A stretch of DNA of 64,000 nt from Spisula solida (lineage: Eukaryota > Mollusca > Bivalvia > Venerida > Mactridae). Shown here in pieces: positions 1 through 52,215 of the stretch. The translations under genes and the position numbers were made by a program. Under the pieces are notes generated by a model, which had not been told where the DNA came from, did not search any database, and worked only from the letters and a program-made list of their open reading frames with translations. The stretch lies in assembly GCA_947247005.1 (NCBI GenBank), contig OX365952.1, forward strand, positions 28,026,222 to 28,090,221. The letters run 5' to 3'. Each line of letters starts with the position of its first letter. The first letter of the stretch is position 1.

Positions 1-482
1 AAAACTAGGTCACAAGGTCAAATCATAGAAAAACCTTGTGAAGTCACTAGAGGTCACAATTTTGGTCTAATCTTTATGAAACTTAGTCACAATGATGATC
101 TCAACAAAATCTAGGTCAAGTTCAATATTGGGTCATCCGGGGTCAAAAACTAGGTCACAGGGTCAAATCTGAGAAAAACCTTGTGCAGTCTCTAGAGGTC
201 TCAATGTTGGCATGGTCTTTATGAAAGTTGGTCACAATGATCATCTAAACAAAATCTAGGTCAAGTTGGATTTTGGGTCATCTAGGGTATAAAACTTGGT
301 CATTAGGTCAAATCATAGACAAAACTTGGCTTAAACTTCAATATGTCATTGGATCTAAATGTGATGTAAATTATGAAGCATAAGATAATATGAAAACCTT
401 GTACATGCAATAGAGGCTACCATTAGGGGTGCATGAACTACTAGGACAGGTGAGCGACCTATGGCCCTTTGGGCCCTCTTGT
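1..482 (+). mobile_element. Family A1 element, 3' part
   Basis: The window opens inside an array of ~145-bp monomers containing the recurring phrase AAAACTAGGTCACAAGGTCA. The array ends in the family right terminus: GACAGGTGAGCGACC, then the hairpin GGCCCTTTGGGCC, then CTTGT. The left end lies outside the window. The architecture fits a non-autonomous Helentron-like element; no coding capacity is seen. Confidence 0.75.
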
Positions 483-994
483 GTAAGAATTATTGCCCCT
501 TTTTGGACTTAGAAAATAAAATGCCTTCGTAAAGTTTTGCGTTTAGGTCCACTTTTCTCCTAAACTATCAGAGTTATTGCTTTGAAACTTTCAACACTTG
601 TTGACCATCAATACCTGACCATGTCAAGCAAGACTCATAACTGATCTGCATTTTGCATGAGTTATTGCCCCTTATTGGACTTAGACAATTCCTTGGTTAT
701 GTTTTGTGTTTAGGTCCACTTTTCTCATACACTTTGTGGGCTATTTCTTTGAAACTTACAACACTTGCTCACCATCAATACCTGACCAGGTCAAGCAAGA
801 CTCATAACTCTGATCTGCATTTTGCATGGGTTATTGCCCCTTGTTGGACTTAGAACATTTCTTGGTTAAGTTTTGTGTTTAGATCCACTTTTCTCTTACA
901 CTATGTGGGCTATTGCTTTGAAACTTTCAATACTTGTTCACAATCAATACCTGACCATGTCAAGCATGACCCATAGCTCTGATCAGCATTTTGC
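483..994 (+). repeat. Family F ~170-bp tandem monomers (left part)
   Basis: Three diverged copies of a ~170-bp unit start near 492, 664 and 833, each with TTATTGCCCCT followed by GGACTTAGA and a GTTTAGGTCCACTTTTCTC segment. The apparent short reading frames here are products of the repeat. The array is interrupted at 995 by a family A1 element and its last piece resumes at 2685. Confidence 0.7.
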
Positions 995-2684
995 AGCTCA
1001 CCTGTCGCAAAGTGACAGAGTGAGCTTTTGTGATCACTCGTCGTCCGTCCGTCAAAAATTGGGTTGTGTCCTCTCTAGAGGTCACAATTTTGGCCTAATC
1101 TTTACGAAACTTGGTCACAATGATCATCTCAACAAAATCTAGGTCAAGTTCAATATTGGGTCATCTGAGGTCAAAAACTAGGTCACTAGGTCAAATTATA
1201 GAAAAACCTTGTGTATAAGTCACTGGAGGTCATAATTTTTTATAAATCTTAAATGATCATGTCAAGAAAATCTAGGTCAAGTTCGATTTTGGGTCATCTG
1301 GGATCAAAAACAAGGTCACAATGTCAATTATAAAAATCACAATGTCAATTGACATTTTCCTGAGGTTCGTGGGTTCAACCCCCACTTGAACCATAATTTT
1401 AAGTGTTAAGGTATTGTTTTGTCTTTATAGCATGTATTTGTACAGTTATATGGAGGAAAATATTTTTTCCAAAATATTTTGTTTAAATTATAGGTCAAAT
1501 CATAGAAAGGTTACAATTTCAACTTAATCTTTATAAAACTTTGTCACAATGATCCTGTTAACAAAATCTAGGCCAAGTTCGATTTTGGGTCATCTGGGGT
1601 CAAAAACAAGGTCACAATGTCAATTGACATTTTCCTGAGGGTCGTTGGTTTAAACCCCACTGGAACCATAATTTTATTGTGTCGCCTGAAAAGGCGACAT
1701 ATAGGTGTTACTTTGGCAGCGGCGGCGGCGGCGGCGTCACAAATTGCTTGTCCGGAGCATAACTTTGTCACCTTAAGTTCAAATTACTCAAGATTTTGTA
1801 TGTATGTTTCTTGCAATAAGCCGAAATGCAGTGCGCAAGAACCATAACTCTGCCTTGCATCGTTTTTTAATTATTTCCCTTAGATTGATTTAATTTGAGC
1901 ATTTCTTGTCCGGAGGATAACTTTGTAACCATGAGGTTGAATGACTTGAAACTTGGTATGCATGTTTCTTACCAAAAGTCCAAGTGCAGTACACAATAAC
2001 CGTAACTATACCTGGTGCCATTTTTCAATTTTTTCCCTTTGATTGATTTTATAAGCATTTTTTGTCCGTGGCATAACTTTGTCACCATAACTATTAATGA
2101 CTCAAAAATAGGAATGCATGTTTCTTTGCTGTGACATGAAGTGCAGTGCGCAAGAATCATAACTCTAGCTTGTGTAGTGTTTGAATGATTCCCTTCAGAT
2201 TGATTTTATCAGGACATTTTTTTGTCCAGAGCATTGCTTTGTCGTTTTTAGTTCAGATGACTAGAGAACTCTTGTGAGTCTGATATGTAGCCCAATACTG
2301 GATAGTTTTCCATGACAAATGTGCATTTCGTCAGGCGACACATCGTCCCTTTGGCGCAACAAGGTTGTATCTCACTATAAGCGGAGCTTTTATTTTTTTA
2401 AGTGTTTAGGTATTGTTCTGTCTTTATAGCATGTATTTGTCACAATTTCGACTTAATCTTTATGAAATTTGGTCCTAATGATCATCTCAACTCAATCTAG
2501 GTTAAGTTTGATATTAATTAAGTCATCTGGGGTCAAAAGCTAGGTCACATGGTCAAATCATACAAAGCTTGCAATAGAGGCTGAATTTCCTTAAATTTTT
2601 TCAGAAAATGTGTAGTGTCACCATAGGGGTGTGCATGCACTAGTCTGACAGGTGAGCGACCTAGGGCCCTTTGGGCCCTCTTGT
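995..2684 (+). mobile_element. Family A1 Helentron-like element carrying a nested family B element
   Basis: The left end is the hairpin CTGTCGCAAAGTGACAG, flanked by AGCTCAC and GAGTGAGC and followed by a CGTCCGTCCGTC stretch. The body has ~145-bp monomers and two copies of a tRNA T-arm-like module (1369-1385, 1644-1660). The right end is GACAGGTGAGCGACC, hairpin AGGGCCCTTTGGGCCCT and CTTGT. A family B element (1679-2393) sits inside. The flanks on both sides are family F repeat, so this element is itself an insertion. Confidence 0.75.
1679..2393 (+). mobile_element. Family B element, 4 monomers, nested
   Basis: It starts GTGTCGCCTGA and folds as GTCGCCT-GAAA-AGGCGAC. A GGC-rich run near 1715-1735 follows, then four ~158-bp monomers marked by TTGTCC(G/A)...CATAACTTTGTCACC. 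TCAGGCGACAC (2331-2341) is an exact inverted copy of the left end. The tail carries CAACAAGGTTG (a small hairpin) and ends near GCGGAGCTTTTA. The longer relative at 11538 has nine monomers and the same flanks. Confidence 0.75.
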
Positions 2685-2793
2685 TTAAGCAAGACTCGTA
2701 ACACTGCCCTACTTTATGCAAGGGTAATGGGCGTTTTTTACAGTGACAATGATCAGATGAGCGTCTGCACCCGCAAGGCGGTGCTCTTGTATT
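2685..2793 (+). repeat. Family F right end
   Basis: Family F sequence resumes (AAGCAAGACTCGTAACACTG) after the inserted A1 element. It ends with GATGAGCG, a hairpin GCACCCGC-AAG-GCGGTGC and TCTTGT. This end has the same layout as the family A right end but a different hairpin sequence. Confidence 0.6.
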
Positions 2794-5043: not shown

Positions 5044-6116
5044 TAGCTCACCTGTCACAAAGTGACAGAGTGAGCTTTTGTGATCACTCTTTGTCCGTCG
5101 TCCGTCCGTCAACAATTGGCTTGTGTAGACACTAGAGGTCACAATTTTAGCCTAATCTTTATGAAACTTGGTCACAATGATCATCTCAACAAAATCTAGG
5201 TCAAGTTCGATATTGGGTCGTCCGGGGTCAAAAACTAGGTCACAAGGTCAAATCATAGAAAAACCTTGTGTAGTCACTTGAGGTCACAATTTTGACTTAA
5301 TCTTTATGTAACTTGGTCACAATGATCATCTCAACAAAATCTAGGTCAAGTTCGTTATTGGGTCGTCCGGGGTCAAAAACTAGGTCACAAGGTCAAATAA
5401 TAGAAAAACTTTGTGTAGTCACTAGAGGTCACAATTTTGACTTAATCTTTATGTAACTTGGTCACAATGATCATCTCAACAAAATCTAGGTCAAGTTCGA
5501 TATTGGATCATCTGGGGTCAAAAACTAGGTCACAAGGTCAAATCATAGAAAAAACTTGTGTAGTCACTAGAGGTCACAGTTTTGGCCTGATCTTTACGAA
5601 ACTTAGTCACAATGATCATAACAACAAAATCTAGGTCAAGTTCGATATTGGGTCATCCGGGGTCAAAAACTAGGTCACAAGGTCAAATCATAGAAAAACC
5701 TTGCGTAGTCACTAGAGGTCACAATTTTGGCCTAATCTTAATGAAACTCGGTCACAATGATCATTTCAACAGAATCTTGATCAAGTTCGATATGAGTTAA
5801 TCCGGGGTCAAAAACTAGGTCACAAGGTCAAATAATAGAAAAACCTTGTGTAGTCATTATAGGTCACAGTTTTGGTCTGATCTTTACGAAACTTAGTCAC
5901 AATTATCATCTCAACAAAATCTAGGTCAAGTTCGATATTGGTTTATCTGGGGACAAAAACTAGGTTACAAGGTCAAATCATATAAAAACTTTGTGAAGTC
6001 ACTAGAGGTCACAATATTGACCTAATCTGTAAAAAACTTGGTCACGATGATCATCTCAACAAAATCTAGGTCAAGTTCGACAGGTGAGCGACCTAGGGCC
6101 CTTTGGGCCCTCTTGT
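5044..6116 (+). mobile_element. Complete family A1 Helentron-like element
   Basis: This is the cleanest copy. It starts TAGCTCACCTGTCACAAAGT with a perfect CTGTCAC-AAA-GTGACAG hairpin and a GTCCGTCGTCCGTCCGTC stretch. Its monomers are almost exactly 145 bp apart: the GTCACAATGAT-type landmark recurs at 5171, 5316, 5461, 5606, 5751 and 5896. It ends CAGGTGAGCGACC, AGGGCCCTTTGGGCCCT, CTTGT. Host family H sequence reads through when 5044-6116 is removed (GATTTT joined to TAGGTCAG), so insertion was between two Ts without a target duplication. That is typical of Helentrons. No protein is encoded. Confidence 0.8.
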
Positions 6117-6314
6117 TAGGTCAGCAGATAAAAGGTCAAGGTCACTGTGACCATTCCCATTTCTGACTATTCAAATGGTTTCTGATCAATAACTTAAAAC
6201 GCTTTGGCCTAGGATCTCAAACTTTACATGAAGTTTGCTCATCACTGTGATCTTTACCATTTCTGACTATTGGGCTGCCATGGGGACGTACGTGTTTTGC
6301 TAACATCTCTTGTT
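6117..6314 (+). repeat. Family H right part and terminus
   Basis: The ~138-bp monomer resumes with a second AGGTCACTGTGACC (6139-6152). The repeat ends with GGGGACGTACGTG and TCTTGTT (6308-6314), 24 bases before the exon at 6339. Confidence 0.6.
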
Positions 6315-9553: not shown

Positions 9554-11055
9554 TAGCTCACCTGCCACAAAGTGGCAAGGTGAGCTTTTGTGATTGTTTT
9601 TGTCCGTCGTCAATCATCCGTCGTCCGTCTGTTAGACAATTCACCATTAACACTTCATCAAACTTGGTCAGTAGTTGTATCTCAATGAAATCTAGGTCAA
9701 GTTCGAATATGGGTCATGTGGGGTCAAAAACTAGGTCAAGAGGTAACATAATTGCAAAAACTTGTTAACCCTCTGGAGGCCACATTTTTGCAATGATCTT
9801 CATCAAACTTTGTTGGTAGTTGTATCTTAATGAAATCTAGTTCAAGTTTGAAGTTGGGTCATGTGGGGTCAAAAACTAGGTCAAAAGGTCAAATAGGAAA
9901 ACCTTGTTAACATTCTGGAGGTCACATTTTTGCTTTAATCTTCATGAAGTTTAGTCAAAATGTTTATCTTGGTGACCTTAAGGTCAAGTTCGAAGTTGGG
10001 TCATGTTGGGTAAAAAACTAGGTCAAAAGGTCAGATAATAGGAAAACCTTGTTAACACTCTGGAGGTCACATTTTTGCTTTAATCTTCATGAAGTTATGT
10101 GAAAATGTTTATCTTGATAACCTTAAGGTCAAGTTCGAAGTTGCGTCATGTTGGGTCAAAAACTAGGTCAAAAGGTCAAATAATAGGAAAACCTTGTTAA
10201 CACTCTGGAGGTCACATTTTTGCTTTAATCTTCATGAAGTTGTGTGAAAATGTTTATCTTGATGACCTTAAGGTCAAGTTCGAAGTTGGGTCATGTTGGG
10301 TCAAAAACTAGGTCATAAGGTCAAATAATAGGAAAACCTTGTTAACACTCTGGATGTCACATTTTTGCTTTAATCTTAATGAAGTTAAGTCAAAATGTTT
10401 ATCTTGGTGACCTTAAGGTCAATTTCAAAGTTGGGTCATGTGGGGTCAAAAACTAGGTCTAAAGGTCAAATAATAGGAAAACCTTGTTAACATTCTGGCG
10501 GTCACATATTTGCTTTGATCTTCACCAAACTTGGTCAGTAGTTGTATCTTAATGAAATCTAGGCCAAATGCGAAGTTGGGTCATGCGGGGTCAAAAACTA
10601 GGTCAAAAGGTCAAATAATAGCAAAACATTGTTAACACTCTAGAGGTAACATTTTTTGCTTTGATCTTCACCAAACTTGGTCAGTAGTTGTATCTCAATG
10701 AAATCTAGGTCAAGTTAGAAGTTAGGTCATGTGGGGTCAACAAATAGGTCAAAATGTCAAATAATAGAAAAACCTTATTAAAACTCTTGTGGCCATATTT
10801 TTGCTTTAATCTTGATCAACTTTGGTCAAAATGTCTATATTGATGACCATAAGGTCAAGTTTGAAGTTGGGTCATGTGGGTAAAAAACTAGGTCAATATG
10901 TCAAATAATAGCAAAACCTTTTTAACACTCTGGAGGCCTCAGTTTTGCTTTAACCTTCATCAAGTAAAGTCAATATGTTTATCTTGATGACCTTAAGGTC
11001 AAGTTCAAAGGCCATGTTTAGCAGGTGAGCGCCCCAGGATCTATGATACTCTTGT
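9554..11055 (+). mobile_element. Family A2 Helentron-like element, about nine monomers
   Basis: The head hairpin is CTGCCAC-AAA-GTGGCA(A)G, a paired substitution relative to A1 (CTGTCAC/GTGACAG). TTGTCCGTCG and a TCCGTCTGTTAGAC stretch follow. Monomers recur every ~145 bp (AGGTCAAGTTCGAAG near 9981, 10126 and 10271) and differ from A1 by TGGGTCATGTGGGG and CTTGTTAACACTCTGGAGG. The right end is CAGGTGAGCGCCCC, a weak ATC-TAT-GAT hairpin, and CTCTTGT. No proteins are encoded. Confidence 0.75.
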
Positions 11056-13169
11056 TTTATTAATCTTTAAGAAACTTGGTCACAATGATCATGTCAACAA
11101 AATCTAGGTAAAGTTCAATTTTGGGTCATCTGTGACCAAAAACAAGGTCACACTGTCAATTATTAAACTCACAATGTCAATTGACATTTTCCTGAGGGTC
11201 GTGGGTTCAAACCACACTGGGACCATAATTTTATTTTTTTAAAAAAAAAATTTAAGCGTTTAGGTATTGTTTTGTCATTTTAGCATGTATTTGTACAGTT
11301 ATATGGCGGAAAATATTTTGTTTAAATTATAGGTCAAATCATAGAAAAACCTTGTGTAGTCACAAGAGGTTATAATTTCAACTTAATCTTCATGAAACTT
11401 TGTCACGATGATCATGTCAACAAAATCTAGGTCAAGTTCGATTTTGGGTCATCTGGGGTCAAAAACAAGGTCCGATGTCAATTGACATTTTCCTGAGGGT
11501 CGTGGGTTCAAACCTCACTGGAACCATAATTTTTATTGTGTCGCCTGAAAAGGCGACATATAGGTGTTACTTTGGCGGCGGCGGCGTCACAAATTGCTTG
11601 TCCGGAGCATAACTTTGTCACCTTAAGTTCAAATGACTCAAGAATTGGTATGCATGTTTCTTGCAATAAGCCGGAGTGCAGTGCGCAAGAACCATAACTT
11701 TACCTGTCATAGTTTTTGAATTATTTCCCTTTGATTGATTTTATTAGAGCATTTCTTGTCCGCAGCATAACTTTGTCACCTTAAGTTCAAATGACTCAAG
11801 AATTGGTATGCATGTTTCTTGCAATAAGCCGGAGCAGTGCACAAGAACCATAACTCTACCTGTCATAGTTTTTTAATTATTTCCCTTTGATTGATTTTAT
11901 TAGAGCATTTCTTGTCCGGAGCATAACTTTGTCACCTTAAGTTCAAATGACTCTAGATTTGGTATGCATGTTTCTTGCAATAAGCTGAAGTGCAGTGCAC
12001 AAGAACCATAACTCTACCTGTCATAGTTTTTTAATTATTTCCCTTTGATTGATTTTATTAGAGCATTTCTTGTCTGGAGCATAACTTTGTCACCTTAAGT
12101 TCAAATGACTCTAGATTTGGTATGCATGTTTCTTGCAATAAGCCAAAGTGCAGTGCGCAAGAACCATAACTCTACCTGTCATAGTTTTTGAATTATTTCC
12201 CTTTGATTGATTTTATTAGAGCATTTCTTGTCCGGAGCATAACTTTGTCACCTTACGTTCAAATGACTCAAGAATTGATAGGCATGTTTCTTGCAATAAG
12301 CCGGAGTGCAGTGCGTAAGAACCATAACTCTACCTGTCATAGTTTTTGAATTATTTCCCTTTGATTGATTTTATTAGAGCATTTCTTGTCCGGAGCATAA
12401 CTTTGTCACCTTAAGTTCAAATGACTCAAGATTTTGTATGTATGTTTCTTGCAATAAGCCGAAATGCAGTGCGCAAGAACCACAACTCTGCCTTGCATCC
12501 TTTTTTAATTATTTGCCTTAGATTGATTTAATTTGAGCATTTCTTGTCCGGAGGATAACTTTGTCACCATGAGGTTGAATGACTGGAAACTTGGTATGCA
12601 TGTTTCTTACCAAAAGTCCAAGTGCAGTACACAAGAACCGTAACTCTACCTTGTGCCATTTTTCATTTTTTTCCCTTTGATTGATTTTATAAGCATTTCT
12701 TGTCCGTGGCATAACTTTGTCACCATAACTATTGATGACTCAAAAATAGGAATGCATGTTTCTTTGCTGTGACATGAAGTGCATTGCGCAAGAATCATAA
12801 CTCTAGCTTGTGTAGTGTTTGAATGATTCCCTTCAGATTGATTTTATCAGGACATTTTTTTGTCCAGAGCATCGCTTTGTCGTTTTTAGTTCAGATGACT
12901 AGAGAACTCTTGTGAGTCTGATATGTAGCCCAATACTGGATAGTTTTCCATGACAAATGTGCATTTCGTCAGGCGACACATGCGACTCGCGGAGCTTTTA
13001 TTTTTTTAAGTGTTTAGGTATTTTTTTGTCTTTCTAGCATGTATTTGTACATTGATATGGAGGCAAATATTTTTTCCAAAATATTTTGTTTAAATTATAG
13101 GTCAGATCATAGAAAAACCCTGTGTAATCACCAAAGGTCACAATTTCGACTTAATATGGGCCCTCTTGT
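11056..13169 (+). mobile_element. Family A1-type fragment with T-arm modules, host of a family B element
   Basis: A1 monomers carry two copies of TGTCAATTGACA plus a tRNA T-arm-like segment (11201-11217, 11502-11518). The element is interrupted at 11538-13000 by family B. It resumes with TTTTTTTAAGTGTTTAGGTA and ends GGGCCCTCTTGT at 13169. The order of modules copies 1100-2684, including the position of the family B insertion. Confidence 0.65.
11538..13000 (+). mobile_element. Family B element, nine monomers, nested
   Basis: The left end GTGTCGCCTGA forms GTCGCCT-GAAA-AGGCGAC and is followed by GGCGGCGGCGG. The TCC(G/T)G(A/C)GCATAACTTTGTCACC-type landmark recurs at about 11601, 11759, 11915, 12073, 12231, 12389, 12547, 12704 and 12863, a period of ~158. 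TCAGGCGACAC (12969-12979) inverts the left end. The tail GCGACTCGC is a minimal hairpin before GGAGCTTTTA. Family B differs in sequence from family A but copies its layout. Confidence 0.8.
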
Positions 13170-13271: not shown

Positions 13272-14029
13272 TAGCTCACCTGTCACAAAGTGACATTGGT
13301 GACAGAGTGAGCTTTTGTGATTACTCTTCGTCCGTCCACAATTTGTGTAGACACTGTAGGTCACAGTTTTGGCTTAATCTTTATGAAACTTGGTCACAAT
13401 GATAATGTCAACAAAATCTAGGTCAAGTTTGATATTGGGTCATCTGGGGTAAAACACTAGGTCACAAAGTCAAATCAAAGAAAAACCTTGTGTAGTCACT
13501 AGAGGTCACAATTTTGGCCTAATCTTTATGAAACTTGTCACAATGATCATCTCAACCAAATCTAGGTCAAGTTCGATACTGGGTCATCCAGGGTCAAAAA
13601 CTAGGTCACAAGGTCAAATCATAGAAAAACCTTGTGAAGTCACTAGAGGTCACAATTTTGGTCTAATCTTTATGAAACTTGGTCAAAATGATGATGGTAA
13701 AAAAATCTATTTCAGGTTCAATATTTGTACTGTAGAGGTCACAATTTTGACCTAATCTTGATGAAACTCGGTCACAATGATCATGTCAACAAAGTCTAGA
13801 TTAAGTTCGATATAGGGTCATCTGGGGTCAAAAACTAGGTCACTAAGTCAATTTATAGACAAAACTTGGCTTAAACTTCAATATGCCATTTGGTCTATGT
13901 GATGTGAATTGCAATGTGGCTTTATAAGACAATATGAAAACCTTGTACATGCAATAGAGGCTACCATCAAGGGGTCTGCATGAACTACTAGGACAGGTGA
14001 TCGACCTATGGCCCTTTGGGCCCTCTTGT
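13272..14029 (+). mobile_element. Family A1 element
   Basis: The head TAGCTCACCTGTCACAAAGT carries a small internal duplication (GTGACATTGGTGACAG). Four monomers follow, then a distal segment with CAATATGAAAACCTTGTACA. The right end is GACAGGTGATCGACC, GGCCCTTTGGGCC, CTTGT. The 102 bp before it (13170-13271) is a loose monomer fragment. Confidence 0.7.
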
Positions 14030-14430: not shown

Positions 14431-14662
14431 TAGCTCACCTGAGCCCAAGTACTTTAGGTGAGCTGTTGTGATCTTCCTATGTCCGGCGTCAACTGTCCGG
14501 CGTCCACCGTCAACAATTGGACTGTTAACACTCTAGAGGTCTCAGTTTTCACTTAATCTTTATGAAACTTGGTCACAATGTTTGCCTCTATAAAATCTAG
14601 GCCAAGTGCGTAACTAGGTCATCTGGGGTCAAAAACTAGGTCACAAGGTCAAATCAAAGACT
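14431..14662 (+). mobile_element. Family A3 head, truncated
   Basis: It starts TAGCTCACCTGAGCCCAAGT with an outer stem CACCT/AGGTGAG, a CCGGCGTC-rich stretch and one monomer. It breaks off near 14662. Confidence 0.65.
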
Positions 14663-14959
14663 TCTGTGATCACGAGTGAAATGAAATTGATCTTACACCA
14701 AAAATCAACAAATTTTCTGTTTATTTTATGCCTCAATTTCTCTTAAAATGTGCCGTAATTGGCTTAATTCGAAAAAAATCACGTCAAAATTGTCACGCCG
14801 TGAGAATTATGACGTCATGATGACACATTTGATTATTATTATAATTACGATGCATTGATAATTAAAGTTCAATTTTAATAATAATTTGAACTAATATTTG
14901 GTCAATTAAAGACTGAAAAATAGTAGGGGACAAGACGGGAGAAAGGGAGAAGAAAGAAA

Positions 14960-19100: not shown

Positions 19101-19849
19101 AGTCCCCTACCGGTTTTTGACCGGAGGGGACTATAGGTTTGCCCTCCGTCCGTCAGTCCGTCCGTCCGTCCGTCAAAAAATCTGGATCCTGACATAACTC
19201 AAAAAGTTTCCAAGCTACTTGTGTAGTCACTAGAAGTCACAATTTTGACCTTATCTTTATGAAACTTAGTCACAATGATCATCACAACAATATCTAGGTC
19301 AAGTTCGATATTGGGTCATCCGAGGTCAAAAACTAGGTCACAAGGTCAAAGCATAGAAAACCCTTGTGTAGTCACTACAGGTCACACTTTTAACCTAATC
19401 CTTATGTAACTTAATCAGAATGATCATCTCGACAAAATCTAGGGGTCAAGTGCGATATTGCGTCATATAAGGTCAAAAACTAGGTCACAAGGTCAAATTA
19501 TAGAAAAACCTTTTGTAGTCACTAGAGGTCACAATTTTGACCTAATCTTTATGAAACTGGGTCACATTGCTCATCACAACAAAATCTAAGACAAGTTCGA
19601 TATTGAGTCATCGGTGGTCAAAAACTAGGTCACAAGGTCAAATCATAGAAAAACCTTGTGTAGTCACTACAGGTCACACTTTGGCCTAATCCTTATGAAA
19701 CTTGGTGAGAGTGATCATCTCAACAAAATCCAGGTCAAGTGCGATATTGCGTCATATTGGGCCAAGAACTAGGTCACAATGTCAAATCACAGGTCTTGCA
19801 AGTACTGGTACAACAGGTGAGCAACCTAGGGCCCTTTGGGTTCTCTTGT
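19101..19849 (+). mobile_element. Chimeric element: family D head, family A1 body and tail
   Basis: The left end AGTCCCCTACCGGT folds on ACCGGAGGGGACT, followed by GTCCGTCCGTCCGTC and GATCCTGACATAACTC, all family D. From about 19216 the sequence is family A1 monomers, and the right end is CAGGTGAGCAACC, GGGCCCTTTGGG, CTCTTGT. The true family D right end (AAAACCGGTAGGGGACT) is absent. The left terminus of one family is thus joined to the body and right terminus of another. Confidence 0.7.
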
Positions 19850-20911: not shown

Positions 20912-21689
20912 TAGCTCACCTGTCACAAAGTGACAGAGTGAGCTTTTGTGATCACTCTTCGTCCGTCGTCCGTCCGTCCACAATTACTTGTGTAGATAAT
21001 AGAGGTCACAGTTTTAGCTTAATCATTATGAAACTTGGTCACAATGATCATCTTAACAAAATCTAGGTCAAGTTCGATATTGGGTCATCCGGGGTCAAAA
21101 ACTAGGTCACAGGGTCAAATCATAGAAAAACCTTGTGTAGTCACTAGAGGTCATAGTTTTGACCTAATCTTTATGAAACTTATTTACAATGATCATATCA
21201 ACAAAATCTAGGTCAAGTTCGATATTAGGTCATCCGGGGTCAAAAACTAGGTCACAAGGTCAAATCATAGAAAAACCTTGTGTAGTCACTAGAGGTTATA
21301 ATTTTGACCTCATCTTTATGAAACTTTGTGACAATGATCATCTCAACAAAATCTAGGTCAAGTTTGATATTGGGTCATCCGGGGTTAAAAACTAGGTCAC
21401 AAGGTCAAATCATAGAAAAACCTTGTGTAGTCACAAGAGGTCACAATTTTGACCTAATCTTTATGAAACTTGGTCACAATGATCATGTCAACAAAATCTA
21501 GGTCAAGTGTGATATTAGGTCATCCGGGTCAAAAAAAGGTCACAAGGTCAAATCACTTCAATATGTCATTGGGTCTAAATGTGATGTAAATTATAAATCA
21601 TAAGACAATATGAAAACCTTGTACATGCAATAGGGGTGCATGAACAACTAGGACAGGTGAGCGACCTATGGCCCTTTGGGCCCTCTTGT
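20912..21689 (+). mobile_element. Complete family A1 element
   Basis: The perfect head hairpin CTGTCAC-AAA-GTGACAG is followed by CGTCCGTCGTCCGTCCGTC, about four 145-bp monomers, GGACAGGTGAGCGACC, GGCCCTTTGGGCC and CTTGT. It sits in the T-run after CCATAATC, where other copies of the host repeat read straight through. That again agrees with insertion at T|T. Confidence 0.75.
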
Positions 21690-21971: not shown

Positions 21972-22929
21972 TAGCTCACCTGTCACAAAGTGACAGAGTG
22001 AGCTTTTGTAATCACTCTTCGTCCGTCCGTCAACAATTTGCTTGTGTAGACACTAGAGGTCACAATTTTGGCCTAACCTTTTGAAACTTAGTCACAATGA
22101 TCATCTTAACAAAATCTAGGTCAAGTTCAATATTGGGTCAGCTGGGGTAAAAAACTAGGTCACTAGGTCAAATCAAAGAAAAACCTTGTGTAGCAAGTAG
22201 AGGTAATAATTTCGACCTAATCCTTATGAAACTTGGTCACAATGATTATCTCAACAAAATCTAGGTCAAGTTCGATATTGGGTCACCCGGGGTAAAAAAC
22301 TAGCTCACAAGGTCAAATCATAGAAAAACCTTGTGTAGTAACTAGAGGTCACAATTTTGACATAATCTTTATGAAACTTGGTTAAAATAATCATCTCAAC
22401 AAAATCTAGGTCAAGTTCAATATTGGGTCATCTGGGGTCAAAAACTAGGTCACTAGGTCAAATAACAGAAAAACCTTGTGTAGTCAGTAGAGGTCATGAT
22501 TTCGACCTAATCCTTACGAAACTTGGTCAAATTGTTCATCTCAACAAAATCTAGGTCAAGTTCAATATTGGGTCATCCGGGGTCAAAAACTAGGTCACAA
22601 GATCAAATCATAGAAAAACCTTGTGTAGTCACCAGAGGTCACAATTTTGGCCTAATCTTTACGAGACTTGGTCAAAATTATCATCTCAACAAAATCTAGG
22701 TCAAGTTTGATATTGGGTCATCCGGGGTCAAAAACTAGGTCACAAGGTCAAATCATAGTCAAAACTTGAAATAAACTTCAATATGCCATTTGGTGTATGT
22801 GATGTAAATTGCAACGTCGCTTTATAAGACAATATGAAAACCTTGTACATTCAATAGAGGCTACCATCAAGGGGTCTGCATGAACTATTAGGACGGGTGA
22901 GCGACCTATGGTCCTTTGGGCCCTCTTGT
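21972..22929 (+). mobile_element. Complete family A1 element
   Basis: It has the perfect head hairpin, a CGTCCGTCCGTC stretch and about five monomers. The distal segment (AATATGAAAACCTTGTACAT) shared with 13272-14029 and the right terminus ending CCCTCTTGT follow. Confidence 0.75.
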
Positions 22930-23066
22930 TTCATTGACCATGCCCGTGACGGGCGTATTTTGTGACATTTTGGCTCTTGTTACATATTATTAAGCTTTGC
23001 AACAGTCACTAAAAACCTCATGGTCACATAATCTTTACTATGGTTAAAATACATAGTATAGTGTGC

Positions 23067-28850: not shown

Positions 28851-30815
28851 TAGCTCACCTGTCACAAAGTGACAGAGTGAGCTTTTGTGATCACTCGTCG
28901 TCCGTAGTCCGTCCGTCCGTCCGTCAACAATTTGCTTGTGTAGACACTAGAGGTCACAATTTTGACTTAATCTTTATGAAACTTGGTCATAATGATCATC
29001 TCAACAAAATCTAGGTCAAGTTCGATATTGGGTCATCCGGGATCAAAAACTAGGTCACAAGGTCAAATCATAGAAAAACCTTGTGTAGACACTAGAGGTC
29101 ACAATGTTGGCCTAATCTTTATGAAACTTGGTCACAATGATCATCTCAACAAAATCTAGGTCAAGTTCGATATTGGGTCATCCAGCGTAAAAAACTAGGT
29201 CACAAGGTCAAATCATAGAAAAACCTTGTATAGTCACTAGAGGTCACAATTTTAGCCTAATCCTTATGAAACTTAGTCAGAGTGATCATCTCAACAAAAT
29301 CTAGGTCAAGTGCGATATTGCGACATATGGGGCCAAGAACTAGGTCACTAGGTCAAATCACAGGTAATGCATGTACTGCTATAATATGTGAGCGACCTAG
29401 GGCCCTTTGGACCCTTTTGTCTGAATTACTTGCAAACCATTATAGATATCAACTTCAACAGAGTGAGCTTTTGTGATCACTCTTCGTCCGTCGTCCGTCC
29501 ACAATTACTTGTGTAGACACTAGAGGTCACAGTTTTAGCTTAATCATTATGAAACTTGGTCACAATGATTATCTCAACAAAATCTAGGTCAAGTTCGATA
29601 TTGGGTCATCCGTGGTAAAAAACTAGGTCACAAGGTCAAATCATAGAAAAACCTTGTGTAGACACTAGAGGTCACAATGTTGGCCTAATCTTTATGAAAC
29701 TTGGTCACAATGATCATCTCAACAAAATCTAGGTCAAGTTCGATATTGGGTCATCCAGCGTAAAAAACTAGGTCACAAGGTCAAATCATAGAAAAACCTT
29801 GTATAGTCACTAGAGGTCACAATTTTAGCCTAATCCTTATGAAACTTAGTCAGAGTGATCATCTCAACAAAATCTAGGTCAAGTGCGATATTGCGACATA
29901 TGGGGCCAAGAACTAGGTCACTAGGTCAAATCACAGGTAATGCATGTACTGCTATAATATGTGAGCGACCTAGGGCCCTTTGGACCCTTTTGTCTGAATT
30001 ACTTGCAAACCATTATAGATATCAACTTCAACAGAGTGAGCTTTTGTGATCACTCTTCGTCCGTCGTCCGTCCACAATTACTTGTGTAGACACTAGAGGT
30101 CACAGTTTTAGCTTAATCATTATGAAACTTGGTCACAATGATTATCTCAACAAAATCTAGGTCAAGTTCGATATTGGGTCATCCGTGGTAAAAAACTAGG
30201 TCACAAGGTCAAATCATAGAAAAACCTTGTGTAGACACTAGAGGTCACAATGTTGGCCTAATCTTTATGAAACTTGGTCACAATGATCATCTCAACAAAA
30301 TCTAAGTCAAGTTCGATATTGGGTCATCCGAGGTCAAAAACTAGGTCACAAGGTCAAATCATAGAAAAACCTTGTGTAGACACTAGAGGTCACAATGTTG
30401 GCCTAATCTTTATGAAACATGGTCACAATGATCATCACAACAAAATCTAGGTGAAGTTCGATATTGGGTCATCCGAGGTCATAAACTAGGTCACAAGGTC
30501 AAATCAAAGAAAAACCTAGTGTAGTCACAATTTTGACTAAATCTGTATGAAACCTGGTCACAATGATCATGTCAACAAAATCTAGGTCAAGTTTGATTTT
30601 GGGTCATCTGGAGTCAAAAACTAGGTCACAAGGTCAATTCATAGACAAAACTTGGCTTAAACTTCAATTTGCAGTTTGGTCAATGTGATGTAAATTGCAA
30701 CGTCGCTTTAAAAGACAATATGAAAACCTTGTACATGAAATAGAAGCTACCATCAAGGGGTCTGCATTAACTACTAGGACAGGTGAGCGACCTATGGCCC
30801 TTTGGGCCCTCTTGT
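28851..30815 (+). mobile_element. Family A1 element(s) with internal 573-bp duplication
   Basis: A perfect head hairpin and CCGTCCGTCCGTCC are followed by monomers. Internal right-end-like sequence (AGGGCCCTTTGGACCC) is followed by a headless restart (CAGAGTGAGCTTTTGTGATC) at about 29460, and again at about 30033. The final right terminus ends CCCTCTTGT at 30815. Confidence 0.7.
29086..30302 (+). repeat. 573-bp tandem duplication, about 2.1 copies
   Basis: Positions 29086-29729 recur at an offset of exactly 573 with no difference that I see by eye over several hundred bases, up to about 30302. The unit spans a right terminus, a short spacer and a headless restart. It is either a very recent unequal exchange or an assembly duplication. 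Confidence 0.8.
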
Positions 30816-30883
30816 TTATGGACTAGGCTTCTACGGGGGCATAAGCGTTTATTGAACGCAGTCTTGTTTTACTTTTAAATTAT

Positions 30884-32284
30884 TATACCCCTGCAAACAA
30901 AGTTTGAAAGGGGTATACTGGAGTCACCGTGTCTGTCGGGCGGGCGGTCGGTCGGTCTGTCTGTTAGCAAAATCGTGTCCGCTCTGTAACTTTGTCATTT
31001 CTTACTGGATTTTAAAATCTCTTTGTACAAATGTTCGCCACATCAAGACGATGTGTCATGCGGAAGACCCAGGCCCCTACCTCAAAGGTCAAGGTCACAC
31101 TTAGAGGTCAAAGGTTATATAGGCATCCAAGTCGTGTCCACTCTGTAACTTTGTTGTTTTTTTACTGGATTTTAAAATTGTTTTGTAAAAGTGTTCACCA
31201 CATAAAGACGGTGTGTCGTGCGCAAGACCCAGGTCCCTACCTCAAAGGTCAAGGTCATACTTAGAGGTCAAATATTAAAAGGCTCAAATAGGCATGTGAA
31301 TCGTGTCCGCTCTGTAACTATGTCATTTCATATGGGATATTTATATTACTTGGTACAAATGTTAACCACATCAAGACGGTGTTTCATGCGCAAGACCCAG
31401 GCCCCTAGCTCAAAGGTCAAGGTCACACTTGGAGGTCAAAGGTTAAAAGGCACAAAATTGTGTCTGCTCTGTTATGAACTATGTCATTTCTTATTGGATA
31501 TTTATAATACTTGGTACAAATGTTTACCACATATAGAGGGTGTGTCATGCACAAGACCCAGGTCCCTAGCTGAAAGGTCAAGGTCACACTTGGAGGTCAA
31601 AGGTTAAAAGGTACAAAATTGTGTTCGCTCTGTAACTTTGTCATTTCTTATTGGATATTTATAATACTTGGTACAAATGTTCACCACATCAAGAAGGTGT
31701 GTCATGTCCAAGACCCAGGTCCCTAGCTCAAATGCCAAGGTCACACTTGGAGGTCAAAGGTTAAAAGGCACAAATAGGCATGTCATTCGTGTCCACTGTA
31801 ACTTTGCCATTTCTTATTGGATATGTATGATACTTAGTACCACATCAAGACGATATGTCATGTGCAAGGCCCAGGGCGAGGTCAAACTTAGAGGTCAAAG
31901 GTTATATAGTCATGCAAGTCGTGTCCGCTCTGTAACTTTGTCGTTTCTTAGTGGATTTTAAAAGTGCTTGGTACAAATGTTTACCACATCAATAAAGTTT
32001 TTCTAATTTTTTTTCCTATATTTTTTTTTCGAATTTCTTGTTGTTGTTTTTTATATCTAGATCTATTTTTGTTAAATATTTTTTTCAATTTTTTTGTAGG
32101 TTTTTTTTGCGGAAGACCTAGGTCCCTAGCTCAAAGGTCACTTAGAGGTCAAAGGTTATATAGTTATGCATGTCGTGTTTCTTACTAGATTTTAAAAGAT
32201 AAAAGTAACTATAAATTTAAATAATATTCCTGTGTCAAGCAGTGCTGCGGGGGTATGATTCATCACTCCAGTGATAGTTCTAGT
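30884..32284 (+). mobile_element. Family C Helentron-like element, about eight monomers
   Basis: The left end TATACCCCTGCAAAC folds on GTTTGAAAGGGGTATA and is followed by GGGCGGGCGGTCGGTCGGTC. Monomers of ~160 bp carry GTGTCCGCTCTGTAACTTTG, ACCACATCAAGACG and AGACCCAGG. The right end is TGCGGGGGTATGA (inverted left arm), a hairpin ATCACT-CC-AGTGAT, then TTCTAGT. The 3' hairpin plus CTAGT is a classic Helitron-type terminus. The overlapping open frames are a product of the repeat. Confidence 0.8.
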
Positions 32285-37638: not shown

Positions 37639-38184
37639 TAGCTCACCTGCCACAAAGTGGCAAGGTGAGCTTTTGTGATTGTTTTTTGTCCGTCGTCCGT
37701 TGTCCGTCGTCCGTCCGTCTGTTAGACAATTCACCGTTAACACTCTAGCACTTTCAATCTTCACCAAACTTGGTCAGTAGTTGTATCTCAATGAAATCTA
37801 TGTCAAGTTCGAAGTTGGGTCATTTGGGGTCAAAAACTTGGTCAAAAGGTCAAATAATAGCAAAACCTTGTTAACACTCTGGATGTCACATTCTTGCTTT
37901 GATCTTCACCAAACTTGGTCAGTAGTTGTATCTCAATGAAATCTAGGTCAAGTTTGAAGTTGGGTCATGTCAGGTCAAAAACTAGGTCAAAAGATCAAAT
38001 AATAGAATAACCTTGTTAACACTCTGGTGGCCACATTTTTGCTTTAATCTTCATGAAGTTTGGTCAAAATTTTTATCTTGGTGACCTTAAGGTCAAGTTT
38101 GAAGTTGGGTCATGTGGGGTCAAAAACTAGGTCAAATGGTTAAATAATAGGAAAACCTTGTTAACACTCTGGCGGCCACATTTT
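37639..38184 (+). mobile_element. Family A2 element, right end missing
   Basis: The head CTGCCAC-AAA-GTGGCA(A)G is followed by a repeated CCGTCGTCCG stretch and about three 145-bp monomers. It is cut by another A2 head at 38185. Confidence 0.7.
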
Positions 38185-38290
38185 TAGCTCACCTTGTGAC
38201 TTTTGTGATTGTTTTTTGTCCGTCGTCCGTTGTCCGTCGTCCGTCCGTCTGTTAGACAATTCACCGTTAACGCTCTAGCACTATTGCTAC
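38185..38290 (+). mobile_element. Family A2 head fragment
   Basis: TAGCTCACCTTGTGACTTTT lacks the hairpin loop. A CCGTCGTCCGTCCGTCTGTT stretch runs directly into coding-like sequence at about 38292. Confidence 0.6.
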
Positions 38291-38291
38291 A

Positions 38292-38640
38292 TGTTTCCAA
38301 ATTGCAGTGGAAGAGCTTTGTGTTGCTGTTGGGACTGGAAAACCCTTACGTTGTATTGCTGCTCACACAATTGCAACTCGCTCCGGCATAGACAAAGCAA
38401 AAGCATTACCAGTCTTTCACACCTTTACATGATATGACCAAACTTCATCATTTCCTGGTAGAGGACAGAAAAGTGCATGGTACACTTGGAGTTCATATAA
38501 TGAATTGACAGCTGCTTCCAATACTTTCGCTCTGTGCCCTGATAAGACAACAGTTTATTCACAGCTTCCAGTACTTGGAGTGTTACACTGTTTCCTCTAC
38601 GACATGACCAGTACAGTTTCTAAAGTGGATGATGCTAAAA
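38292..38640 (+). pseudogene. Coding fragment between two repeat heads
   Basis: One frame is open for about 115 codons except for a TGA at 38430-38432. It reads FQIAVEELCVAVG, then LPVFHTFT-stop-YDQTSSFPGR, WYTWSSYNELT and LGVLHCFLYDMTST. The middle resembles an uncharacterised, multi-copy invertebrate protein family with a HxFTGCD-like motif; the stop falls at the Gly position of that motif. This resemblance is from memory and is not verified. There is no start codon or other domain. It sits directly between a family A2 head and a family E head, as a captured or trapped fragment would. Confidence 0.5.
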
Positions 38641-38649: not shown

Positions 38650-39520
38650 TAGCTCCACTATTCGTAGAATAAGGGGAGCTTTTGCAGTCACCCGAGCGTC
38701 GGCGGCGGCGTAACACTTTTGTTAAAGTTTAGGTACAGGTTTTTTAACCTCTTATATTCTCTAAGTCCTTTGAGATGTTGCTTTCATACTTTGCATACAT
38801 GTTTGCCATCATGACCCCAACCCATATGCAGGAGTAGGTAACTCGACCAGGCATTTTGTTGAAATTATGCCCCCTTTTTCTACTGAGTGCAAATGTTAAA
38901 GTTTAGGTACGGATTTTTTAACCTCTAATATCTTCATCGTGCATTGACATATTGCTTTGATACTTTGTATACTTGTTCACCATCATGACCCTAACCCATA
39001 CACAGGGGTAGGTAACTCTATTAAGCATTTTGGTGAAAGTATGCCCCCTTTTTTCAACTTAGTGCAAATGTTAAAGTTTAGGTACAGGTTTTTTCACCTC
39101 TAATATTTTCAAAGTGCATTCACATTTTGCTTTGCATACTTATTCTCCATCATAACCCCAACCTCTACACAGGGGTGGGTAAATTATGTCCCCTTTTGGA
39201 CTTGGAAATGCAAATGTTAAAGTTTAGGTACAGGTTTTTTAACCTCTAATATCTTCAAAGTACATTGACATATTGCTTTGATACTTTGCTTACTTGTTCA
39301 CCATCATGACCCAACCCATACACAGGGGTAGGTAACTCTATTAGGCATTTTGGTGAAATTATGCCCCCGTTTTCAACTTAGTGCAAATGTTAAAGTTTAA
39401 GTACATGTGAGGTTTGGTGACCTCGAATATTTTCAAAGTGCATTCACATATTGCTATGCATACTTGTTCTCCATCATGATCCCAACCCCTACACGGGGGT
39501 AGGTAACTCTATCAAGTTTT
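38650..39520 (+). mobile_element. Family E element, left part
   Basis: The head TAGCTCCACTATTC folds on GAATAAGGGGAGCT and is followed by CGTCGGCGGCGGCG. Monomers of ~174 bp carry AAAGTTTAGGTACAGGTTTT, CATCATGACCCCAACCC and TTATGCCCCCTTTT. The array is interrupted by a family A3 element and resumes at about 41350. Confidence 0.7.
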
Positions 39521-41350
39521 TAGCTCACCTGAGCACGAAGCTATTGTGATCGCCCTATGTCCGTCGTTCGCCGTGCGTCGTCAACAATTGGACTGTTAAC
39601 ACTCTAGAGGTCACAGTTTTTACCTAATCTATATGAAACTTGGTCACAATGTGTGGCGTTATTTAATCTAGGTCAAGTTAACATCTGGGTCATCTGGGGT
39701 CAAAAACTAGATCACAATGTCACATTGAAGAAAAACCTTGTTAATACTCTAGAGGTCACATTTTACCTACTTTACATGAAACTTGGTCACAATGTTCGTC
39801 TCTATTAAATCTAGGCCAAGTATGAAACTGGGTTATCTGGGGTCAAAAAGTAGGTCACCAGGTCACATCAAAGAAAAACCATATTAACCCTCTAGAAATC
39901 ACATTTTTTATGTAATCTTAATGAAACTTGGTCACAATGTGTGTCTCCATTAAATCTAGGTCAAGCTCACAACTGGGTAATCTGGGGTCAAAAACTAGGT
40001 CACTAGGTCACATTGAAGAAAAACCTTGTTTACGCTCTAGAGGTAATATTTTTGACATAATCTAAATAAAACTTATTCACAATGTGTGTCTCTATCAAAT
40101 CTAGGTCAAGTTTACAACTGGATCATCAGGGGTCAAAAACTAGGTCACCAGGTCACATTGAAGAAAAACCTTGTTAACGCTCTAGAGGTCACATTTTACC
40201 TAATCTATATGAAACTTGGTCACAATATGTGTCTTTATTTAATCTAGGTCAAGTGTACATCTGGGTCATCTGGGGTCAAAAACTAGGTCACCAGGTCACA
40301 TTGAGGAAAAACCTTGTTAATGCTCTAGATGTCACATTTTTACCTAATCTATATGAAACTTGGTCTCAATGTGTGTCTCTATCAAATCTAGGTCAAGTTT
40401 ACAACTGGATCATCTGGGGTCAAAAACTAGGTCACCAGGTCACTTTGAAGAAAAACCTTGTTAACGCTCTAGAGGTCACATTTTTACCTAATCTATATGA
40501 AACTTGGTCACAATATGTGTCTATATTTAATCTAGGTCAAGTGTACATCTGGGGTCAAAAACTAGGTCACCAGGTCACATTGAGGAAAAACCTTGTTAAT
40601 GCTTCTGTTTGCGAACAGAGTTTCTGTTCGGTATTTAGCTATACCCATGCTCTAGATGTCACATTTTTACCTAATCTATATGAAACTTGGTCTCAATGTT
40701 TGTCTCTATGAAATCTGGGTCAAGTCACCAGGTCACATCAAAGAAAAACCTTATTAACACTCTAGGGGTGACATTTTTATGTAATCTTAATGAAACTTAG
40801 TCACAATGTGTGGCTCTCTTAAATCTAGGTCAAACTCACTACTGGGTAATATGGGGTCAAAAACTAGGTCACCAGGTCACATTGAAGAAAAACATTGTTA
40901 ACGCTGTAGAGGTCACATTTTTTATGTAATCTTAATAATACTTGGTCACAATGTTTGCCTCTTTGAAATGTAGGTCAAGTCTGAAACTGTGTTATCTGGG
41001 GTCAAAAAGTAGGTCACCAGGTCACATCAAAGAAAAACCTTATTGACACTCTAGAGGTCACATTAAAGGTGAACTTTTGTGATCAACATATGTGCACCGT
41101 CAACTGTCCGCCATCAACAATCTGACTGTTAACACTCCAGAGGGTTGCATTTAAGCTTGATGAAACTAAGTCACAATGTTTGTTCCTACAAAATCAATGT
41201 CAAGTTCGCAACTGGGTCATTTGGGGTCACATCAAAGAAACTCTTTGTTAACACTCGTAGAGGTCACATTATTAATGAACACTTTGTTTTGGCTATTACT
41301 GCCATAATTGCAACAAACTCAGGTGATCGCTAAAGGGCCAATGACCCCTA
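39521..41350 (+). mobile_element. Family A3 element nested in family E
   Basis: The head TAGCTCACCTGAGCACGAAG is followed by a CCGTCGTTCGCCGTGCGTC stretch. About eleven ~145-bp monomers carry CACCAGGTCAC and ACACTCTAGAGGTCAC. The right end CAGGTGATCGC, AGGGCCAATGACCC has lost the usual CTTGT. A frame of 160 codons (40229-40711) is repeat-derived, as its protein is three copies of the same phrase. Confidence 0.7.
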
Positions 41351-46408: not shown

Positions 46409-46759
46409 CCGGTTGGGACTATAGGTTTGCTCTCCGTCCGTCCGTCCGTTAGTCCGTCCGTCCGTCCGTCCGTCCGTCCGTCCGTCGGTCGGTCGGTCGG
46501 TCGGTCGGTCGGTCGGTCGGTCGGTCGGTCGGTCAGTCAGTCAGTCTGTCCGTCAAATATTTGAATCCTGACATAACTCAACTAGTTTCCAAGCTAGCTT
46601 TGAAATTTGGCATGTGGATAGGGGGCAATAAGGGATTATGCACGTCTAAATAATTTTTTATTCTGACATGAATTGTGGTTGCTATGGCAACAGAAACATT
46701 GAAAATGGCTTAAAACCGGTAGGGGACTTCTGTATTGCTCACAATTCTTAGTGACTTGT
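46409..46759 (+). mobile_element. Family D element, left end damaged
   Basis: CCGGTTGGGACTATAGG is followed by a long tetranucleotide run, GAATCCTGACATAACTCAAC and GAAATTTGGCATGTGGATA. The right end is AAAACCGGTAGGGGACT, a TCAC/GTGA hairpin and CTTGT. It keeps the true family D right end that the 19101 chimera lacks. Confidence 0.65.
46433..46556 (+). repeat. Compound tetranucleotide microsatellite
   Basis: A (TCCG)n run changes to (TCGG)n, then (TCAG)n, in one uninterrupted register, and finishes TCTGTCCGTC. It is an expansion of the CCGTC stretch that follows repeat heads in this window. Confidence 0.85.
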
Positions 46760-50639: not shown

Positions 50640-51659
50640 TGGGTACAAATGTTCACCACATCAAGACGATGTGTCTTGCACAAAACCCAGGTCCCTAGCT
50701 TAAAGGTCAATGTCACACTTAGAGGTCAAAGGTTAAAAGGCTCAAATAGGCATGTGATTCGTGTCCGCTCTGTAATTTTGTCATCTCCTATTGTATATTT
50801 ATAATATTGGGTACAAATGTTCACCCCATCAAGGTGATGTGCCATGTACAAGACCCAGGTCCCTAACTTAAAGGGCAAGGTCACACGTAGAGATCAAAAG
50901 TTAAAATTCTCAAATAGGCATGTGATTCATGTCCGCTCTGTTACTATGTCATTTCTTATTGGATATTTATAACACCTGGTACAAATGTTCACCACATTGA
51001 GACGGCGCGTTATGCGCAAGACCTAGGTCCCTTGCTCAAAGGTAAAGGTCACACTTAGAGATCGAAGGTAAAAAGGCTCAAATAGGCATGTGATTCATGT
51101 CAGCTCTGTAACTATGTCATTTCTTATTTTATATTAATATTACTTGCCACAAATGTTCACATCATCAAAACGAGGTATCATGCGCAAGACCCAGGTCCCT
51201 AACTCAAAGGTCACACTTAGAGATCAAAAGTTAAATTCTCAAATAGGCATGTGATTCATGTCAGATCTGTAACTATGTCATTTCTTATTTTATATTTATA
51301 TTACTTGCCACAAATGTTCACATCATCAAGATGAGGTGACATGCGCAAAACCCAGGTTCCTAACGCAAAGGTCAAGGTCATACTTAGAGATTAAAAGTTA
51401 AAAGGCACAGGTATACGCTTCTGGTCTGCTTTGTTTTTTTGTTATTGCGTTCTTGTTTTAAAATTACTTGGTTACATTCGCATTTTCACCCTATCTCAAA
51501 TGTAAAGGTCATACAGACCCAGCTCTTGTCTGCTGTTCAATGTCACATTTAAGCAATTACAAACTTGTTTCAAGTTATTCCATTTGCATAGCTTTATACT
51601 TAGGTGTCTGATGACAGCTTTTAGCGGGGGCATCCGTGTCCTGTGGACATATTTCTAGT
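50640..51659 (+). mobile_element. Family C element without its head
   Basis: About six ~160-bp monomers (GTGTCCGCTCTGTAA, AGACCCAGGTCCCTA) end in GCGGGGGCATCC, hairpin TGTCC-TGT-GGACA and TTTCTAGT. The right end has the same layout as 30884-32284 but a different 3' hairpin sequence. Confidence 0.7.
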
Positions 51660-51825
51660 TAAATACTTGTTTCTGCTATATGTTGGTAAAATTCATAATA
51701 AGTCAAGACAGGTAAATTTAACACATGTATCTAAATATGCAAAATTCACCGGGAATAGGAACAGTGAATTATGGGGACCAGGCTAAACGCTGTGAGCATG
51801 TCTTGAATGGTGCCAAATTGCATTT

Positions 51826-52215
51826 CTAATTTAAAAAAGGGGACATAATTTCAACATATATTTGATAGAGTTGCCTATTCATGTGGAGGTCATGGCGTCA
51901 TGATGGTGATACAGTATGCAAAGTATCAAAGATACATGTCTTAGAGGTTAAAATTGTGTACATAAACTGTAAACTTTTGTACTTCTAAGTACATTAGTCC
52001 AAATGGGGCATAACATTCAACAACATGCTTGATAGAGTGCAGATGTTGTGGTCAAGACGGTTGACAAGTATGCAAAGTATCACAGCAATATGAACATGCA
52101 CTTAGATATTATAGGTTAATACCTTGAACGTAAACTTACAAATTTGCGAAAAGTTGAAAAAGGGACATATTTTCCGATAAATACTTCATAGTTATCTACT
52201 CCTACGTACGTGTTG
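51826..52215 (-). mobile_element. Old family E fragment, reverse orientation
   Basis: Read on the minus strand, it repeats family E phrases: TTGATACTTTGCATAC, CATCATGACGCCATGACC, TTATGTCCCCTTTTT. It holds about two diverged monomers without head or tail. Confidence 0.55.

Follow-up and report, generated by a model that had tools for sequence, protein, structure and literature searches.

What do the tandem repeat families of a 64-kb bivalve DNA stretch share? Putative HINEs with a common plan and partly related monomers

Positions 1-52215 of a 64,000-nucleotide stretch of Spisula solida DNA (GenBank assembly GCA_947247005.1, contig OX365952.1, positions 28,026,222 to 28,090,221 of the forward strand; this whole stretch is hereafter called the window) hold a series of tandem repeat families, denoted here by capital letters. 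A first-pass annotation proposed that at least seven dissimilar families follow one modular plan with hairpins at both ends, that the plan and not the sequence is conserved, and that one Helentron-type machinery replicates them all. The locus thus raises the question of whether these families have only a plan in common or sequence as well, and to which class of mobile element they belong.

Our analysis indicates that they very probably represent non-autonomous Helentrons, or HINEs, of several families, in a genome of bivalve type. This assignment is based on subterminal inverted arms that have their complement in the 5' module, a GTCC-type microsatellite, central tandem repeats, a 3' palindrome, T-run targets and the lack of target duplication at two clean sites. 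Among the features by which HINEs are recognised, those found include inverted subterminal arms (~11-15 bp, the 3' one ~38-60 bp inside), insertion in T-rich sequence (TT) and the absence of transposase coding capacity. In the last respect, Pfam yielded no Rep/helicase or transposase domain in 20 scanned of the 27 open reading frames (ORFs) of at least 90 amino acids in the window; three ORFs reach at least 150 amino acids, two of them of retrotransposon origin. The kind of element is already known, and its members here are new.

Ends and inverted arms of the families

The plan is seen repeatedly in family A, which is composed of three subfamilies (A1, A2 and A3), in the order T-run, 5' hairpin, GTCC-type microsatellite, ~145-bp monomers, 3' hairpin and CTCTTGT. 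The left arm of the 5' hairpin comes back inverted close to the 3' end, before the 3' hairpin. The type element, an A1 copy at 5045..6116 (+) whose host is a J repeat, has its hairpin at 5045-5076, its microsatellite at ~5093-5110 and ~145-bp monomers at 5120-6080, then the inverted arm GACAGGTGAGC, the hairpin AGGGCCC-TTT-GGGCCCT and the end CTCTTGT. The window has 12 recognisable A 5' ends on the + strand. Their hairpin is intact in nine, with a short internal duplication at 13273, and partly lost at 7771, 38186 and 39522; other copies start inside or after the hairpin (6616, 9102, 29463 with its duplicate at 30036, 41069, 45922 and near 23262). The A-like 3' ends listed number 15, one of which (29958) is a duplicate and two of which (41318 and 47294) are degraded.

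The inverted arms are perfect in all eight A 5'/3' pairs tested, over 11 bp in four, 10 bp in one, 9 bp in two and 7 bp in one; one of these pairs, 28852/30778, covers a composite stretch. The 5' arm mostly lies 1 nt from the boundary and the 3' arm ~37 bp from the 3' end. The arm letters differ among the subfamilies (CTGTC/GACAG, CTGC/GCAG and CTGAG/CTCAG), yet the match is kept in all three, as would be expected if the symmetry were under selection. At 14171, an A3-like 3' end has still other arm letters, and its own 5' end was not seen.

A T-run of at least five precedes 10 of the 12 A 5' ends and that of E, against a background of 0.5%, and a T directly follows 14 of the 19 listed 3' ends. 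Target sites were examined by joining the flanks of insertions into repeats and comparing them with uninterrupted paralogues. For the A1 element at 13273..14029 (+), inserted cleanly in an A3-type body, the joined flanks read AGGTCACA-TTTTTTT-ACCT, as compared with AGGTCACA-TTTTT-ACCT in the paralogue, i.e. two extra T, and the element at 5045-6116 has one extra T. No target duplication beyond these 1-2 T was seen at the two clean nested sites (A 5045 and A 13273), which match HINE behaviour as given in excerpts of Thomas et al. (2014; PMC4067079), with a variable number of T and an unmodified target. The A1 element at 20913..21689 (+), hosted by a tRNA-like flanking repeat (H), shares a flanking repeat with B in which the T-runs vary, so that the comparison there is ambiguous. 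At the A1 element at 995..2684 (+), which lies in K and itself holds a tRNA-3'-half-like repeat and B, the site is rearranged.

To evaluate chance, both strands were scanned blindly for the exact plan, with perfect arms of 10 bp, a hairpin at each end and CT[TA]GT, and 120 shuffled strands served as the null. The + strand gave five matches (four A elements and one chance-like), the - strand two, both inside A bodies, and the shuffled strands a mean of 0.33 with a maximum of 3. This generic scan therefore excludes chance for A only, and the evidence for the other families comes from the ends that each of them shows. As for the hairpins, 14 of the 18 listed 5' ends fall within the most stable 1% of window 36-mers, the exceptions being 7771, 38186, 39522 and E. 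The 3' hairpins are strong in A1, A3, K, I and Cb, moderate in C and L, and weak in A2, J and D; that of B is 4 bp or none by eye.

Beyond A, most parts of the plan are found in B and C. B copy 1 (1679..2396, +) has the hairpin GTGTCGCCTGA, a GGC-rich stretch, ~158-bp monomers and an inverted arm. It sits in the same flanking repeat as B copy 2 (11538..12993, +), and the two are therefore counted as one insertion that was later duplicated. The 3' end is uncertain in both, while the arms match over 11 of 11 bp in each. C (30884..32284, +) has the hairpin TATACCCCTGC, a GTCGGTCGG microsatellite, ~161-bp monomers and GCGGGGGTAT, then the hairpin TCACT-CC-AGTGA and the end TTCTAGT. The arms of this one copy are perfect over 7 bp, or match at 9 of 10 positions with one mismatch by eye. 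A second C-like 3' end, Cb, closes a C-like array without a 5' module (50640..51659, +), also in TTCTAGT, after a hairpin (TGTCC-TGT-GGACA) unlike that of C. D occurs as two half copies. One, at 46410..46759 (+), is without the left hairpin arm and has its own 3' arm and the end GACTTGT; the arms match over 16 of 16 bp between two different half copies 27 kb apart. In a chimera at 19101..19849 (+), the D 5' hairpin and microsatellite lead into an A body and an A 3' end.

For E, F, I, J, K and L one end only was seen. E (38651..39520, +) comprises a T-run, the hairpin AGCTCC..GGAGCT, a GGC-rich stretch and ~174-bp monomers; E-like monomers continue to ~41990, with no clear E 3' end, past an A3 element (39522..41350, +; hairpin partly deleted, arms CTGAG/CTCAG, terminal CTCTTGT lost). 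F (28771..28832, +) is a 5' hairpin GGCCACGCAAAAAA/TTTTTTGCGTAGCC with a GTCC microsatellite, interrupted by A at 28852. The 3'-end types I, J, K and L were found in addition by reading. K (483..2790, +) begins with ~169-bp monomers at 483-994, is interrupted by A1 and terminates at 2751-2790 with CAGATGAGCG, the hairpin GCACC..GGTGC and CTCTTGT. J (6117..6313, +) continues the repeat of 4840-5044 and ends in CTCTTGT with a weak hairpin. I (22937..22980, +) has the palindromic arm GCCCGTGACGGGC and CTCTTGT, and L (30828..30867, +) reads CTACGGGGGCAT, the hairpin GCGTT..AACGC and GTCTTGT. Nesting is common: K holds A1, which holds B, E holds A3, and F and J hold A1. The proposed plan in at least seven families is thus borne out repeatedly in A and mostly in B and C, but D shows it as half copies and E and F as 5' ends only; the annotated family G has no counterpart that we could identify in the window, and the end of B does not show the CT(T/A)GT of the plan but reads GGAGCTTTTATT.

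The remaining A copies differ in completeness. Both ends were read in the A1 element at 21973..22929 (+). The A2 element at 9555..11055 (+; arms CTGC/GCAG, weak 3' hairpin) lies in an A1 body, and an A2 5' module with its array is followed by a second A2 5' module at 38186 whose hairpin is deleted (37640..38320, +). At 28852..30815 (+), an A1 element precedes two copies without the left hairpin arm. The tandem units there are near-identical (28872-29933 vs 29458-30506, 95.5%), with the same short spacer twice after the 3' end; either unequal exchange or a rolling-circle concatemer might account for them. 5' hairpins are often absent. At 14432..14670 (+), an A3 5' module is followed by part of a single monomer; it has a paralogue near 23262, and the paralogous flanks (14385-14500 vs 23210-23310) show that the T-run and the whole hairpin are gone at 23262. 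Copies at 6616, 9102, 29463, 41069 and 46410 are also without the full hairpin, some beginning inside its right arm. This frequent loss looks like palindrome-mediated deletion.

Two further observations concern the A bodies. AGGTCA, a nuclear-receptor half-site, occurs mainly there (e.g. 5237, 10020, 22157, 29052 and 40142), and the window has 287 copies on the + strand and 23 on the - strand where 19.9 are expected per strand; AGGTCANNAGGTCA occurs 43 times on + and not on - (0 expected). If AGGTCA were used, A arrays would spread receptor sites. A tRNA-3'-half-like sequence with CCA (GTGGGTTCAAACCCCACTGGAACCATAA) is present in five copies (1369, 1644, 11201, 11502 and 46239; none in 100 shuffles); this repeat sits in A-type bodies and hosts A and B insertions.

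Related bodies and a recurrent 3' terminus

Tandem arrays recur in the window with periods of ~145, 158, 161, 169 and 174 bp. Consensus monomers of seven families (A1, B, C, E, K, D and J) were compared pairwise, with 1500 non-element 160-mers of the window as the null. Eight of the 21 same-strand pairs are similar at P <=0.015 (A-C 0.002, B-C 0.0013, B-E 0.006, B-K 0.006, C-E 0.015, C-K 0.005, C-J 0.005 and E-K 0.0007), whereas none of the 21 opposite-strand pairs falls below 0.09. With A, B, C, E and K set against shuffles, 7 of the 10 pairings on the same strand reach P <=0.007, and none on the opposite strand falls below 0.05. In a held-out test, a 24-bp box, hand-aligned after the pairwise similarities had already been seen, was chosen by 6 of 6 families, five at P <=0.011 and D at 0.23; with E and K merged as one family, K stands at 0.02. 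An automatic motif search scored 149.3, as compared with a mean of 125.8 (standard deviation 3.3, maximum 135.5) in 60 shuffles and with 128.5 when half the families were reversed. We conclude that several of the bodies are diverged relatives in the same orientation.

In a symmetrical count, CTCTTGT occurs 19 times on the + strand and 5 times on the - strand, where 5.7 are expected. Of the 19, 15 mark 3' ends that can be recognised: I, J and K account for one apiece and A-type ends for 12, among them a remnant at 13169. Two of the remaining four fall within B, and an A2 body and a C-like body contain one each. The string CTTGT or CTAGT partly served to spot I, J, L and Cb, and thus for these mainly the letters before it count as independent support. 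A 3'-terminal heptamer is common to families with different hairpins, so that sequence, and not the plan alone, is shared. The annotation's statements that the bodies differ and that only the plan is conserved do not hold in this form, since several bodies and the 3' terminus share sequence; D alone is unrelated to all.

Because A, B, C, E, J and K have monomers that are diverged relatives in part or whole, most families may be read as one old lineage in which the ends would have diverged faster than the internal core. Alternatively, one widespread satellite family might have been captured independently by unrelated elements, which would still be HINEs. The bodies are indeed similar while most hairpins are not, and excerpts of the oyster study argue for independent acquisition in its group 3 elements (PMC7492417). 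However, where bodies are similar, their orientation towards the ends is always the same, and the 3' heptamer is also common to the families. We regard independent capture as a serious, if lesser, possibility.

Class assignment, mechanism and orientation

The Helentron-type reading of the annotation remains the best fit by ends, arms, hairpins, T-run targets and the two clean sites, and two other classes were weighed. Cut-and-paste miniature inverted-repeat transposable elements (MITEs) with internal satellite repeats would be moved by a DDE transposase and leave a target duplication. Inverted arms are present, B and the A2 element at 9555 each have TTTTATT in both flanks, and bivalve pearl elements were first classed as MITEs, as excerpts of PMC7492417 relate. 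The inverted repeats are not outermost, however: the A 3' arm lies ~37 bp inside the 3' end, with the hairpin and heptamer outside it. A target duplication, named in the annotation as the mark of a cut-and-paste superfamily, is absent beyond 1-2 extra T at the two clean nested A sites, while the TTTTATT flanks would allow one at B and at A2 9555. We consider MITEs very unlikely. Canonical Helitrons, with 5' TC, 3' CTRR and insertion between A and T, are called to mind by C and Cb, which end in CTAG then T after a hairpin. In none of the families A to F does the boundary show 5' TC; A starts with a T-run and AGCTC, CTTGT closes A, I, J and K, and the targets are T-runs. Furthermore, excerpts of PMC4067079 list inverted subterminal arms among the features of Helentrons and HINEs. 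A canonical Helitron origin is accordingly hardly credible.

Several observations weigh against the assignment of all these families to HINEs with related bodies. Besides the TTTTATT flanks, which allow target duplication at B and at A2 9555, the T before the 5' end number 1-2 in B, C and D and none in F, and B has no CTCTTGT-type 3' terminus. The 3' hairpins of J, D and A2 at 11055 are equalled by 16-20% of window 24-mers, and only A rises above shuffles in the blind plan scan. As regards the bodies, D monomers are unrelated to all other families tested, A and J are each directly similar only to C, and the automatic search placed E, K and D in phases unlike the hand alignment. The box test with single monomers is weak (A 0.003, K 0.04, B 0.06, E 0.08, D 0.23 and C 0.50), and for this reason the test was made with consensus monomers.

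If the families are HINEs, as we favour, an autonomous Helentron elsewhere in the genome would supply the Rep, helicase and endonuclease. Its nick would fall next to the 5' T-run, and recognition would rest on the subterminal arm and hairpin. One strand would be displaced as far as the 3' hairpin and the closing CTCTTGT (or TTCTAGT) and then be joined into another T-run without duplication of the target. Both the rolling-circle mechanism and one shared Rep are what we infer. The proposal of one machinery for many families gains indirect support from the shared 3' heptamer and from the D-5'/A-3' chimera at 19101-19849: if that chimera was mobile as one piece, a single machinery served both D and A ends, but a post-insertion deletion would look the same.

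The copies are nearly all co-oriented across families, which is unexplained. A symmetrical microsatellite scan gave 23 clusters on the + strand, 22 at 5' modules (several truncated) and one, at 5362, inside an A body, and three on the - strand, none at a recognisable element end. With duplicates considered (1721/11574, 29486/30059, 37688/38218 and 14481/23279), there are ~18 separate + clusters. All that was seen on the minus strand is the remnant of an A hairpin at 23735 and, near 52.2 kb, an E-like stretch in degraded form. T-run content as the cause does not fit A, with 22 T-runs vs 85 A-runs (of at least 5) on the + strand; the ratios in B (16:2), C (9:0), E (11:0) and K (2:0) leave it partly viable. 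Local duplication or nesting in co-oriented hosts may explain the bias. By analogy with the bacterial IS200/IS605 family, for which fork-directed insertion has been reviewed (PMC5371812, in excerpt), a single strand might be inserted into the lagging-strand template at replication forks. This is an unlikely explanation; if true, element orientation would map fork direction along a bivalve chromosome. The co-orientation offers a cheap genome-wide test of strand choice by HINEs.

Neighbouring features and comparison with known systems

Positions 1-52215 also contain much other DNA. BEL/Pao retrotransposon pieces at 25172-28400 (-) are the only convincing coding remnants in the window, and their Pao peptidase and DUF5641 domains are the sole ones above the curated Pfam cut-off in the 20 ORFs, with an integrase core below it. 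Among the best 120 of 497 relatives listed for one of these pieces are sequences of Mytilus californianus (50% identity over 91%) and of Ruditapes philippinarum (55% over 72% and 61% over 57%), of Mya and oysters, and also of fish and frogs. A 50-bp minisatellite of ~44 copies with strong GC skew occupies 58412-60582. Four pairs of inverted stretches, found by reading (~52900-53190 with 56325-56580; 54821-55841; 35733-36635; 47815-48120), resemble ends of other transposons, and two are nested in one another. The window gave no match in Rfam at the gathering threshold or with ARAGORN (bacterial code). A 23-base A 5' pattern had no matches in viral contigs, and the A 5' module none in phages and plasmids. 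A 19-letter A 3' pattern had six matches in genome contigs, all in bacterial records and taken as chance. A string of family A combined with "bivalve" found no match in the open-licence literature, which does not cover all print.

Pearl elements and the BIV160/Cg170 satellites (Satovic et al. 2016, PMC5139131, in excerpt) are alike in carrying ~160-170 bp monomers in mobile elements, and two motifs are conserved across divergent BIV160/Cg170 members. The primer site published for BIV160 reaches a score of 20 in B and of 18 in both A and E, with a 99% null limit of 18, a similarity that may serve as a lead and is not a match. Compared with HINE and DINE-1 elements (Thomas et al. 2014), excerpts of PMC4067079 describe the same subterminal inverted repeats (subTIRs), an inverted repeat beside the 5' subTIR or a palindromic subTIR (cf. 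I), a 3' palindrome, T-rich insertion, a variable terminal T number and no target modification. Several of those families were linked to autonomous Helentrons, whereas the oyster elements, in the excerpted text of PMC7492417, could not be tied to any.

The closest likeness is to Cg_HINE of Crassostrea gigas, for which excerpts of Vojvoda Zeljko et al. (2020; PMC7492417) describe 11-12 bp subterminal arms with their complement in the left module, a GTCY/GTCC/GTCK microsatellite, central repeats mostly of 140-180 bp, and a right arm followed by a palindrome. They likewise report TT or T-rich sites, no target duplication, and repeats and flanks in the same orientation. Cg_HINE belongs to an oyster genome and was compared with families A-L by description rather than by sequence, and A-L may or may not be the same families. 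As far as those excerpts go, Cg_HINE occurs in both orientations genome-wide and the present copies nearly all on one strand of 64 kb; the oyster study also recognised one related group and called the monomers of others, including group 3, unrelated, whereas here families with different ends have similar monomers. The present elements thus extend the HINE plan of the oyster to another bivalve genome and show that families may differ in their ends and yet carry related monomers in one orientation, with a shared 3' terminus that could serve to recognise the autonomous partner.

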